From Bdellovibrionota bacterium (GTDB lineage: Bacteria > Bdellovibrionota > Bdellovibrionia > Bdellovibrionales > JAEYZS01), in contig JAZKEU010000009.1 of NCBI GenBank assembly GCA_040386775.1, forward strand, positions 1-64,000: a stretch of 64,000 bases of DNA, read 5' to 3'. How positions within the stretch are numbered: the stretch's first letter is position 1; the number at the start of each line of letters is the position of its first letter. Shown here one piece after another: positions 7,802 through 12,574 of this stretch. Under the pieces are notes generated by a model. The model was not told the origin of the DNA and ran no database searches. It saw only the letters and a program-made list of their open reading frames with translations. The translations under genes and the position numbers were made by a program.

Positions 7802-7936
7802 GCTAATCCTTTTTTGGCTAAAATTTTAGCCAAATTACAAGACGACAGAGTAACCTTTTCCGAATAGGAATTCATCTCAGTGCGCATTGCGTTGCTTGTT
7901 TATTTTTCGTTTATTTCTAAAGGGGATTGGAGTCTT

Positions 7937-9973
7937 ATGGTCCCCGACGGGAAACATATGAAAAAGGTACAGCCTAATCTTACAAAAAGATACGCCGAGC
8001 TCATCGAAGAGATTCAGGTTCATGATACAAACTATCATGTTCTAGACCGTCCTACGATTCCAGACCGCGAATATGATAAGCTCTACGCAGAATTAAAAAA
8101 CATCGAAGAGGCTCATCCCGAAATCATTTCAGAATTGTCTCCAACCCAGAGGGTCGGTGCTCAGGCTCTTGATAAGTTCAAAAAAGTAGCCCATAGAAAA
8201 CCCATGCTTTCGCTTCAGAATAGTTACTCCGAAGAAGACATTCTGGCTTTTGATAAAAGAGTGAAAAAGGTTTTAGCTTCGGAAAAAGACATTGAGTATT
8301 TTTGCGAACCCAAACTGGATGGCCTTGCAATTGAATTAATTTATGAAAACGGAACATTGGTTGGCGCACTCACACGAGGCGATGGAACAACTGGCGAAGA
8401 TGTTTTTTCAAATATCAAAACCATCAAATCTATTCCTATGAAATTAAAAACATCAACCCCTCCCAAGCTCGTAGAAATTCGCGGTGAAGTTCTAATGCAG
8501 AAAAAAGATTTCTTAAAGCTGAATGAAGAGCAGCAAGAAGAAGGCGAGGTTCCCTTTGCCAATCCTCGAAACGCGGCCGCAGGAACAATCCGACAACTTG
8601 ATCCAAAAATCGCAGCCGCAAGACCTTTGAGATTTTATGGTTATTCTCTTGGGGCCTTTGAAGGAATCCAATTCAAATCTCAAGACTCTACTCAAAAACA
8701 ATTCAGAGATTGGGGAGTTCCGACCGTTGCAGAAGAGATTATCTCACTTGTGGATAAGGCTGATGGAGCTGTGGATTACTATAATAAAATTAAAAAACTT
8801 AGAAAAGCTTTACCCTTCGAAATCGATGGCATTGTTGTAAAAGTAAATGATTACAAACTCCAAGATGAATTGGGTTTTATCTCAAGATCTCCGAGATGGG
8901 CCAATGCTGCAAAGTTCGAACCCGACCAAGCTGAAACACAAATTGAAAAAATCGTTGTTCAAGTCGGAAGGACCGGCGCCCTCACTCCGGTTGCAATAAT
9001 GAAGCCTGTTGTTGTTGGCGGAGTAACGATAACCAACGCCACTCTTCATAATCAAGATGAAATTGATCGCAAAGACGTCAGAGAGCAAGATTTTGTTATC
9101 GTACATCGAGCGGGCGATGTGATTCCTGAAATCGTTGAAGTATTAAAAGATAAGCGCGAGAAAAAAAGTAAAGCTTATTATATTCCAAAAGAATGTCCGG
9201 TGTGTGGATCTGAAGCCACTAAAGTCGAAGGCGAAGTGGTCTTAAGATGTCCCAACCCACTTTGTGATGCCAAACTAAAAGAATCTCTAAAACATTTTGT
9301 TTCAAAGCGTGCAATGAATATAGAAAAGGTCGGAGACAAACTCATTGACAGTTTTGTAGACAACAAATTGATTGGTTCCTACTCGGATCTTTATAAAATT
9401 AAAATCGATCAGGTTTTAGTTTTAGAAAGACAAGGCGAAAAATCTGCTCAAAACATTATCGAAAGCATCGATAGCAGCAGAAAACCCAGTCTATCAAGAT
9501 TCATATACGCTCTAGGAATCCGTTTCGTCGGCGAGCAAACAGCTAAAATTCTCGCCCATCACTTTGGACTCTTAGATAAATTTCTAAAAACAAATTTAGA
9601 AGAACTCGTCGAGATTGATGGTGTCGGACCAAAGGTTGCTCAATCCATCATCGACGCAATTTCACAAGATTCCTTCAAAAAAGAAATTCAAAAGATAATT
9701 AAAAATGGCGTAGACATCCAAGGTGAGGAAAAAAAAATTTCTTCTGAAAGATTTAAAGGCCTCACGTTTGTAATTACGGGCACTCTACCGATGGATCGCG
9801 ATGAAGTTAAAAAAATAATCGAAAGCCACCTGGGAAAAACCAGCGGATCCGTGAGTAAGAAAACTAGCTATGTCTTAGCTGGTGAGGCTGCAGGAACAAA
9901 ACTCGATAAAGCGCAAGAACTCGGAGTTAAAGTTCTATCTTGGGAAGAGTTTCAAAGCTTGCTTGCAGAATAA
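7937..9973 (+). CDS. ligA: NAD-dependent DNA ligase
   Basis: The frame opens at 7880, but the ATG at 7937 (with GGAG and AGGGG upstream) or 7958 fits the family better; the extra N-terminal residues are hydrophobic and look unrelated to LigA. Domains in order: Ia NAD-binding (YHVLDRPTIPDREYD), adenylation domain with the nucleophilic Lys in CEPKLDGLAIEL (residue 126 from this start), OB fold, four-cysteine zinc finger (CPVC...CPNPLC), helix-hairpin-helix repeats (VDGVGPK-like IDGVGPKVAQSI), and a C-terminal BRCT (TFVITGTLPMDRDEV). It seals nicks in replication and repair. Transcribed divergently from gatCAB. Confidence 0.96.
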   Translation: MVPDGKHMKKVQPNLTKRYAELIEEIQVHDTNYHVLDRPTIPDREYDKLYAELKNIEEAHPEIISELSPTQRVGAQALDKFKKVAHRKPMLSLQNSYSEEDILAFDKRVKKVLASEKDIEYFCEPKLDGLAIELIYENGTLVGALTRGDGTTGEDVFSNIKTIKSIPMKLKTSTPPKLVEIRGEVLMQKKDFLKLNEEQQEEGEVPFANPRNAAAGTIRQLDPKIAAARPLRFYGYSLGAFEGIQFKSQDSTQKQFRDWGVPTVAEEIISLVDKADGAVDYYNKIKKLRKALPFEIDGIVVKVNDYKLQDELGFISRSPRWANAAKFEPDQAETQIEKIVVQVGRTGALTPVAIMKPVVVGGVTITNATLHNQDEIDRKDVREQDFVIVHRAGDVIPEIVEVLKDKREKKSKAYYIPKECPVCGSEATKVEGEVVLRCPNPLCDAKLKESLKHFVSKRAMNIEKVGDKLIDSFVDNKLIGSYSDLYKIKIDQVLVLERQGEKSAQNIIESIDSSRKPSLSRFIYALGIRFVGEQTAKILAHHFGLLDKFLKTNLEELVEIDGVGPKVAQSIIDAISQDSFKKEIQKIIKNGVDIQGEEKKISSERFKGLTFVITGTLPMDRDEVKKIIESHLGKTSGSVSKKTSYVLAGEAAGTKLDKAQELGVKVLSWEEFQSLLAE

Positions 9974-9995: not shown

Positions 9996-10301
9996 TTAAA
10001 GGCAGCTTGAATTTTGATTTTTAATTCGAATCATTTGTTTTTTACGCTGTTCACATAAAATTCTAACATGTCTGTGATTAATACACATATTATTACAGTT
10101 CAAAAAGGTTTCATACAATAGTGACTCAACATCACTTATTAACGCTTTATCTTTACACTCGCCTATGAGCGTATTCCAGAAATCAAAAGTCTCCTCTACG
10201 AGATCGTAGGCTTTATTACAAGCTTCATTGGGTGAAATGCCTGAAGCCTGTGATTCATAAGAAATTAAAAAAGCAATCAAAGCGATAAATATTTTACTCA
10301 T
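9996..10301 (-). CDS. Small cysteine-rich exported protein
   Basis: 101 residues. A signal peptide is evident (MSKIFIALIAFLISYESQASG, cleavage probably after QAS). The mature part of about 80 residues has six cysteines (EAC, GEC, LNC, NMC, ILC, SCL) and is helical, so three disulfides in the periplasm or outside the cell are plausible. I recognise no family. It converges on ligA (stops 22 bases apart) and stands alone. Confidence 0.65.
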   Translation of the reverse strand: MSKIFIALIAFLISYESQASGISPNEACNKAYDLVEETFDFWNTLIGECKDKALISDVESLLYETFLNCNNMCINHRHVRILCEQRKKQMIRIKNQNSSCL

Positions 10302-10460: not shown

Positions 10461-10484
10461 AAAGGCGAGTTGTTGCTCGCCTTT
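10461..10484 (-). terminator. Rho-independent terminator of the histone gene
   Basis: A 9-bp perfect stem (AAAGGCGAG with CTCGCCTTT) and a 6-base loop are followed on the minus strand by a run of T (TTTTTTCTTTT). It lies 28 bases beyond the histone stop codon, so the histone is likely transcribed as a short single-gene mRNA. Confidence 0.9.
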
Positions 10485-10511: not shown

Positions 10512-10706
10512 CTATAAATGGTCGATGTTGATATCGCGAGCCATAACGGTTTTTCTGCCGTCGTTTTTTGCGCTCTCGATTCCACGATCACAAAGTGCCT
10601 GAACAGCTTTGCTCAATACATCAACGGTTTCTGATGAAGTGTTGTAAGTTGCTTTTTCTTTGATGTACTTTTTAACTTTGCTAGTTACTACTAAAACGTC
10701 CGCCAT
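10512..10706 (-). CDS. Single-domain bacterial histone (Bd0055/HBb-like)
   Basis: 64 residues made up almost entirely of one histone fold without tails: helix 1 about 4-17 (LVVTSKVKKYIKEK), loop with TSSETVD, long helix 2 about 24-47, loop GRKTV (50-54), helix 3 MARDINID. The GRKTxxARDI motif is the bacterial counterpart of GRKTIKAEDI in archaeal HMfB, and the whole protein closely matches my memory of the B. bacteriovorus histone Bd0055. That protein is an abundant chromatin component there, and its DNA binding differs from nucleosomal wrapping. A strong ribosome site (GGAGGA) lies 8 bases upstream, and the gene has its own terminator, as expected for a highly expressed gene. Confidence 0.93.
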   Translation of the reverse strand: MADVLVVTSKVKKYIKEKATYNTSSETVDVLSKAVQALCDRGIESAKNDGRKTVMARDINIDHL

Positions 10707-10727
10707 AATATTTCCTCCAAAACGCTC

Positions 10728-10842
10728 ATAAGAGCTCTTATTTCAGAAATTAAAATATACTCGAATATATTCGTTTTGAAGCTAATTTTAACGAAACGTT
10801 AAGATTTGTGTCTTTGACGCAATCCGCGCAGCAATTGCTGCG
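10728..10842. promoter_or_regulatory. Palindrome-rich promoter region of the histone gene
   Basis: Four inverted repeats lie in 115 bases upstream of the histone start: ATAAGAGCTCTTAT (10728-10741, perfect), CGAATATATTCG (10762-10773, perfect), TTAACG-aaa-CGTTAA (10788-10802) and CGCAGCAATTGCTGCG (10827-10842, perfect 16-mer). A TATATT on the minus strand at about 10753-10758 could be the -10 element. The last palindrome lies just after the metallophosphoesterase stop (10872) but lacks a T-tract, so it is not an ordinary terminator. Operator or nucleoid-protein binding sites are an inference. Confidence 0.5.
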
Positions 10843-10871: not shown

Positions 10872-12356
10872 TTAGGAACTAACCTGAATAACGGTTGGAG
10901 CATCAGCATCTTGGGGAGGTTTTCCGCTTTTAATTTGATATGAATCGCCACGGATAAATTCTCTGAGCTGAGCCGTTCTTTTGCCGTTCTCGCCTGGCTC
11001 AATCCAAATGTATGTCTTCTTGCCAAAAGGTTTCGTGCACTCCACATCTAGAAACGCGGGAGTCCAACATCCTGAATTCAAATGTTCTACCTCGCCAATG
11101 AACTCATGACGAGCGACATGTGTGTGACCATAGATCACACGTTTTACTTTTGTGATTCTTGAAGACACACTCAAAACCCATTCATTGGGTTCTTTTACCG
11201 AACTCACATCGGAGTGAATTGATTTAGCGTAGAAGACAAAAAACGGAACCAAAATAAACAACGGAATGAACATCCAGAAAAATGAAAAGTCATAGGCGAG
11301 TTTAATAATAGTAAAAATTTGGAAGATAAAAATAAATCCAATAAGCACGATGAACGCACGATCAAGCCACAACTCTCTCGCTAGTCGAATCGGATTACTC
11401 GCAGCAGGATTCGCCGCCAACTCTTTGAGTTCGCGAACCATTCTTGGTGTTGCGTTTGCTTTTTCGGCGATGTCATTAACTCGATCCTCTGTAGTGAGTG
11501 GGTCTTTTAGCTCGGGCAAAAGTCTATCGAGTAATGATTGAAATAAAACTAAAATAGAAGACCAAAACCATGTCCACATGATGAGCGGCTGAGTTCTGAT
11601 TAAATATTTCGTGAAAAACTTAATATAATCCCCAAAACTCATAATGAAATTCGAATCCACGTGAGGATTAAAAAAGCCCATGCCGTTTGTCATGTATCTT
11701 CCCGCCAAATCCCCGAATGGAAGTCTTAATTCCACGCGGTTAAATTTTTGCACAAGTGGGTGAATTGGATTTTGGCAAAGACAGTAGGGATCGTATTGGT
11801 TTCCGTGCTCAATAAGAGTGTCTTCATTGCTGATGTAAAACCATTCGCAAAAACGTACTCTTTTTTCTTCTTCTTTTGTTAAATTCAAAGAATAAATAAT
11901 ATCTCTCTGGACCTGGTGGTAGTGAAGCTCTAAATCGTGATTCCCAATGATGATGACAACTTGGTTTCCTCTTTTGATGAATTTTCTTAAAGCCTCAATG
12001 AATAATGGATGCTCGCTCAATATTTTTTGTATTTTATAAGAGGCTTTTTCTTCTTCGGGATATAGTCCCCTGATTTTTTCTAGCCATGTAATTCTGTAAT
12101 GAGCATCTTCAGGATAAGACATCACCGCATCGAAATCAAAAATGTCTCCATTTAAAATCAACTCGGCTTTTTCACTGCCTGTCTGCTCTTGAATGTATTC
12201 GAAAAAATCACTGAGCGTGTCGTCAAAAAAGAATTCCTTGCTCTTAAATTTTTTCCAAAGATCACCAGACGGATGCTCGGGCTCTGCTTCCGTTAAATGA
12301 ATATCGCTTATAATCGCGGTATATTTTGCGTGTTGGAAAGGATTGTTGTTGTCCAT
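10872..12356 (-). CDS. Calcineurin-like metallophosphoesterase with a membrane insertion
   Basis: The frame can extend to 12428 (GTG), but the ATG at 12354-12356 (MDNNNPFQHAKYTAIISD) is the likelier start. Metal-binding motifs appear in order (numbered from the long frame): SDIHL (41-45), LNGDIFDFD (92-100), IGNHDLELH (161-169), IEHGNQYD (206-213) and YGHTHVARH (433-441). Between the fourth and fifth lies a stretch of about 220 residues with hydrophobic segments at about 282-303 and 358-401, so the phosphoesterase fold is split by membrane helices. Substrate unknown; UDP-diacylglucosamine hydrolase-like or nucleotide-cleaving roles are possible. No strong ribosome site is visible at either start. 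Confidence 0.8.
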   Translation of the reverse strand: MDNNNPFQHAKYTAIISDIHLTEAEPEHPSGDLWKKFKSKEFFFDDTLSDFFEYIQEQTGSEKAELILNGDIFDFDAVMSYPEDAHYRITWLEKIRGLYPEEEKASYKIQKILSEHPLFIEALRKFIKRGNQVVIIIGNHDLELHYHQVQRDIIYSLNLTKEEEKRVRFCEWFYISNEDTLIEHGNQYDPYCLCQNPIHPLVQKFNRVELRLPFGDLAGRYMTNGMGFFNPHVDSNFIMSFGDYIKFFTKYLIRTQPLIMWTWFWSSILVLFQSLLDRLLPELKDPLTTEDRVNDIAEKANATPRMVRELKELAANPAASNPIRLARELWLDRAFIVLIGFIFIFQIFTIIKLAYDFSFFWMFIPLFILVPFFVFYAKSIHSDVSSVKEPNEWVLSVSSRITKVKRVIYGHTHVARHEFIGEVEHLNSGCWTPAFLDVECTKPFGKKTYIWIEPGENGKRTAQLREFIRGDSYQIKSGKPPQDADAPTVIQVSS

Positions 12357-12574
12357 GTTGTTTCTATTAATTGTATCTGTATGTCTCAAAGTAGAACAGT
12401 ACAATTTGGTTATACAATTTGACGGCACAACGAGCAGTATATTTATACCGCAAATTTTGTCATGAATTGGCGAACATATAGACAGTATCTCAGTCTGGGG
12501 CGCTCTTAAGTGCTTAGAAATACACGTTTTTTTATTATAGAAATGGCACCGAGTTTGCTTTATATGAAAGTACT

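Follow-up and report, generated by a model that had tools for sequence, protein, structure and literature searches.

The window analysed here, a stretch of 64,000 nucleotides from a Bdellovibrionota bacterium, contains a clear ortholog of the Bdellovibrio bacteriovorus histone HBb (Bd0055). The reading that we consider very probable is that its product is an HBb-type nucleoid protein, probably abundant, which would bend DNA as a homodimer and would not form nucleosomes. In the present analysis this reading is based on orthology, the predicted monomer fold, the identity of the DNA-contact residues and synteny; we infer the dimeric state, bending, abundance and near-essentiality from experiments on B. 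bacteriovorus.

Gene, product and expression signals

The histone gene occupies positions 10512–10706 of the minus strand, with its ATG at 10706 and its TAA stop at 10512, and encodes a 64-residue product (MADVLVVTSKVKKYIKEKATYNTSSETVDVLSKAVQALCDRGIESAKNDGRKTVMARDINIDHL) that contains GRKTVMARDI. The first-pass annotation had correctly placed a 64-residue single histone fold with the GRKTxxARDI motif at these positions, leaving the strand unstated, and the strong ribosome site and dedicated terminator that it described were both found. A Shine–Dalgarno motif, GGAGG, lies at 10714–10718 (minus strand), approximately 7–8 nt 5′ of the ATG. Relatives were collected with one genome per species, and the best 80 of 97 loci were kept; all 80 of these sequences carry a purine-rich, Shine–Dalgarno-like motif 5′ of the gene. 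A predicted intrinsic terminator at 10461–10484 (minus strand; GC-rich 9-bp stem, 6-nt loop and T-rich tail; TTTCTTTTAT) begins approximately 27 nt past the stop codon, and terminator-like hairpins occur within 100 nt 3′ of the histone gene in 48 of the same 80 sequences, compared with one of 80 mononucleotide shuffles. In the upstream gap, a weak σ70-like promoter candidate (TTAAAA-16-TATATT, 10764–10791, minus strand) is a consensus match only, and an alternative candidate is located at 10814–10785. The 5′ leader of the gene also includes a perfect 14-bp palindrome, ATAAGAGCTCTTAT (10729–10742), which was rejected as an operator-like site, being absent from the regions upstream of the histone gene in relatives. 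A search of the window with Rfam returned no RNA family.

The histone gene is probably a single-gene transcription unit encoding an abundant nucleoid protein. Its codon adaptation index is 0.69, against means of 0.64 for fragments of the window and 0.73 for the ribosomal-protein region, which places it at the 73rd percentile among 64-codon gene fragments of the window; a bias this mild is weakly informative, and codon usage was discarded as evidence of high expression. Because codon adaptation is raised only mildly, the case for abundance is made by analogy with Bd0055, which ranks 12th of 2,125 B. bacteriovorus proteins and is at the top of the nucleoid fraction (PMC10627809). The high expression proposed earlier is thus plausible by that analogy, but the codon usage does little to strengthen it.

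Orthology and family membership

In a phmmer search of PDB sequences, the B. bacteriovorus histone, represented by two constructs (8fvx/8cmp; E = 3.2e-26), was the best match, and the window histone is 77% identical to it over all 64 residues without gaps. What had been described as a relative of Bd0055/HBb is in fact its ortholog. The next matches were Leptospira HLp (E = 4.7e-6) and the archaeal histone HTkC (9f2c; E = 7.9e-6), and the HMf histones matched only marginally (HMfA, E = 0.27). The Pfam family PF00808 (CBFD_NFYB_HMF) scores 19.3 bits (E = 0.0014), narrowly short of the family's gathering threshold of 21.4, compared with 23.7 for the B. bacteriovorus histone, and the NCBIfam archaea_histone model reaches 24.6 against a cut-off of 50. 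Since both profile scores are below threshold, automatic annotation can miss this gene or label it hypothetical. The best 80 of the 97 public loci encode proteins that are 66–84% identical to the window histone and are nearly all labelled Bdellovibrionota/Bdellovibrionales; these loci, their strong conservation and the phmmer E-value exclude a chance open reading frame. One of the records (L012, CALQIT020000112.1) is titled as a 'Streptomyces griseus' metagenome-assembled genome and is evidently a mislabelled Bdellovibrionota record, because its histone, metallophosphoesterase, ligA and gatCAB neighbourhood all match. Histone-fold reading frames that are 42–46% identical to HBb are also found in six IMG/VR contigs of 44–190 kb (L122–L127), and probably represent either published 'phage histones' or host DNA misassigned as viral. 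A viral origin of the window gene was rejected, these histone folds being too distant.

The window protein is a member of the 'bacterial dimer' class, which has been defined by sequence (PMC11390915), and belongs to the α3 histone family, with a short α2 and a truncated α3. It is a single histone fold in the ∼61–66-residue range without extra domains, clusters by sequence with Bd0055, and carries the RKT...D loop-2 motif (RKTVMARD), the RD clamp and the α1 lysines 10, 12 and 16. The earlier label 'HMf-type' was therefore loose: the GRKTxxARDI motif is there, but the protein is of the α3-family bacterial-dimer kind and not of the nucleosomal HMf type. HMfA and HMfB share with it the loop-2 RKT motif and the RD clamp, whereas the long α2, the three-turn α3, the tetramer histidine and the sprocket arginine are all missing from the window histone, in which α2 is shorter and α3 minimal.

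HBb/Bd0055 (PDB 8FVX, 8FW7, 8CMP, 9EZZ and 9F0E) shares the length of 64 residues, and its gene likewise has its own Shine–Dalgarno motif and its own terminator. The 15 substitutions that lead from Bd0055 to the window protein (E3D, L14Y, G19A, Q20T, M21Y, A25S, I28V, I35V, E36Q, Q37A, L40D, K41R, V43I, A48N and V60N) are mostly conservative or at variable positions. B. bacteriovorus has a second histone, the ZZ-type Bd3044, whereas the window genome has none. The histone domain of Bd3044-type proteins is homologous (51% identity over 59 residues), but it is accompanied by an N-terminal zinc-finger domain (165-residue protein in B. bacteriovorus kdesi) that the window protein lacks. In strain kdesi a ZZ-type histone with a zinc finger and a histone domain, apparently Bd3044, is encoded at L090:1120–1617 (plus strand).

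Predicted structure and DNA-contact residues

An AlphaFold2 single-chain model built from 34 aligned sequences (mean pLDDT 81.7, pTM 0.59) places helices at residues 3–19 and 25–48 (α2), followed by a very short third helical segment, with no third helix of at least four residues. In Foldseek searches against the PDB, the top five matches to the model are HBb entries (E = 4.9e-7 to 8.4e-6; TMq 0.80–0.84), followed by tetrameric HLp (TMq 0.72) and HTkC. The structure prediction proposed as a check of the histone fold is thus consistent with it.

A comparison of DNA-contact positions with Bd0055, likewise suggested by the first-pass annotation, gave a closely matching picture. HBb contacts DNA chiefly through N22, R57, S9, T53, T8, S24, K10, K12, K52 and K16; T23 and A25 likewise reach the DNA backbone, and a clamp is formed by D49, R51 and D58 (PMC11317129). 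T8, S9, K10, K12, K16, N22, T23, S24, K52, T53 and R57, as well as the complete D49–R51–D58 clamp, are identical in the window histone, and the sole contact difference is A25, replaced by a serine that is also found in 21 of the best 80 sequences of 97. Twelve residues (S9, K10, K12, K13, N22, T23, D49, R51, K52, T53, R57 and D58) are invariant in all 80, T8, K16 and S24 are nearly so, and the charge composition is equal in the window histone and Bd0055 (11 K/R and 9 D/E). The loop-1 substitutions A19, T20 and Y21 are rare within the family.

Genomic neighbourhood

The gene for the NAD-dependent DNA ligase, ligA (7880–9973, plus strand), is convergent with the histone gene and lies outside the histone unit, in conserved synteny. 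On the other side, a calcineurin-like metallophosphoesterase gene (10872–12428, minus strand) precedes the histone gene on the same strand and serves as a synteny marker; its true start probably lies inside this longest open reading frame. In B. bacteriovorus (L035) and most relatives the same set is found as in the window, namely the metallophosphoesterase, the histone, a convergent ligA and gatC–gatA–gatB. The gene had been expected to offer a second genomic context for comparison; this does not hold, the neighbourhood being that of B. bacteriovorus, with a convergent ligA in 73 of the 77 loci that have at least 1.5 kb of downstream flank and a metallophosphoesterase on the strand of the histone in 48 of the 74 that have at least 1.5 kb upstream. 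Because the histone gene has its own Shine–Dalgarno-like motif and terminator-like hairpin, the conserved histone–ligA neighbourhood looks like ancestral synteny and not a functional operon. A 101-residue open reading frame between ligA and the histone (9996–10301, minus strand) has a signal-peptide-like N-terminus and several cysteines, with no family match above the cut-off, and small secreted-looking frames are present in the ligA–histone gap elsewhere too (L117:761–1150 and L121:250–807).

Proposed mode of DNA binding

The short histone-fold protein would form a homodimer, which is the most likely oligomeric state, and the dimer is expected to span the minor groove and contact the DNA backbone independently of sequence. 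The predicted contacts are made by T8, S9, K10, K12 and K16 of α1, by N22-T23-S24 of loop 1, by K52-T53 of loop 2 and by R57, with loop 2 presumably held by the clamp. By analogy with HBb, the chromosome would be compacted mainly through DNA bending by separate dimers, in the manner of HU/IHF, end-on coating of DNA being possible at a very high protein:DNA ratio and nucleosomes not being expected to form. Published studies of HBb–DNA complexes conflict between straight coating and bending, leaving the reference binding mode unsettled (PMC10627809; PMC11317129), and nothing in the window protein itself favours either mode. The main rival to our reading, to which we assign a minor but appreciable probability, accepts the same orthology but takes the in vivo role to be an end-on nucleohistone filament that sheathes straight DNA. 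The crystal structure of Bd0055 with DNA and analytical ultracentrifugation indicated approximately one dimer per 2.5 bp, with no FRET between the DNA ends (PMC10627809), and the N-terminal tail that is exchanged in the filament, AEVL in Bd0055, is nearly the same in the window histone (ADVL). However, deletion of the N-terminus of Bd0055 did not abolish DNA binding (PMC10627809), Hu et al. saw bending and compaction in solution and in simulation, and a second HBb crystal contact fits bending (PMC11317129); a complete genome-wide sheath would also demand very large amounts of protein. The straight-filament model of the 2023 structure may describe saturating conditions.

Wrapping of DNA by a tetramer, of the FtF type as in Leptospira HLp or of the nucleosomal type as in archaeal HMf, is very improbable, even though similarity to HLp, HTkC and HMf is detectable in sequence or fold. 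HLp from Leptospira perolatii (FtF; PDB 9QT0) shares the α3-family fold, the short α2 and α3 and the RD clamp, but it is a stable tetramer that wraps approximately 60 bp, and its dimer–dimer residues R49 and N53 align with S45 and D49 of the window histone. The position of the nucleosomal tetramer histidine is taken by N48, while S45 and I61 match Bd0055, which does not tetramerize and which drew the ends of DNA together only as the A48H/S45F/I61L mutant (PMC10627809); the HBb structures are, moreover, far closer to the model. With the tetramerization residues missing, the window protein belongs with the bacterial dimers. Equally remote is the possibility that the protein works locally, perhaps on ligA, whether as a regulator built on the histone fold or in some other role outside chromatin architecture. 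The fixed place beside ligA across most of the class would suit such a role, but the two genes are separate convergent transcription units, the histone with its own terminator, HBb binds genome-wide in a sequence-independent manner (PMC11317129) and the conserved contact residues touch only the phosphate backbone. Within the preferred reading, a homodimeric HBb-type architectural protein, a DNA-binding geometry shifted from that of Bd0055 or a larger share in nucleoid packaging could be imagined because the protein is the sole histone, has no ZZ-type partner and carries the rare A19, T20 and Y21, but we regard this as very improbable.

Distribution and significance

Among 242 surveyed Bdellovibrionota genomes of at least 90% completeness, 225 contain some histone match, and a strong HBb match (E below 1e-33) is found in 101 of the 107 sampled genomes of the class, the window's own included. 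None of three apparent absences is a proven loss: in one genome (G173) an otherwise matching HBb gene is partly masked by N, in another (G141) the contig ends shortly past ligA and in the third (G119) no ligA was found in the assembly. Outside the class, histone matches are weaker and often lie within longer frames, as expected if they are ZZ-type or other histones. In the 2.86-Mb assembly of the window genome, whose completeness is 98.4%, the gene described here is the only one for a histone: queries with PF00808, PF09123, HBb and Bd3044 revealed neither a second histone nor a Bd3044-type ZZ histone in it, and a match on contig C23 (14 bits, within a 760-residue frame) was dismissed as below the cut-off and apparently due to chance. 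Three HU/IHF-family matches are present in this genome, and another genome of the same family (G135) has a second histone match. An extension of the histone family to a low-GC lineage, as proposed earlier, adds little, since Hocher et al. already recorded histones in 67% of Bdellovibrionota (PMC10627809) and loci of 32–40% GC are common among the relatives.

Three genomes of 1.4–2.0 Mb (G169–G171), which make up the rest of the six without a strong HBb match and are of the same order as the window genome but from another family and two genera, encode a strongly diverged histone of 67–70 residues at the position beside ligA (L117:1222–1434, minus strand; L118:1585–1797, plus strand; L119:2004–2207, plus strand). 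It has the pattern MSLIIVKK..KLKTVKxxHVP, and among PDB entries it matches HBb best (E = 1.2e-7). K10, K12, T23-S24 and K52-T53 are retained, and S9, N22, R51, R57 and D58 are absent, so that the RD clamp is gone. These proteins offer a natural test of which features the 'essential' HBb requires, and the conservation table of the histone relatives, which shows the freely varying residues, could guide mutagenesis of Bd0055.

The window gene is a new sequence of a known family already recorded across Bdellovibrionota, and it implies no new mechanism. The survey bears out that, within its class of Bdellovibrionota, the HBb histone gene is near-universal and syntenically fixed, and this near-universality fits histones as an ancestral chromatin protein of the lineage and not as sporadic imports.
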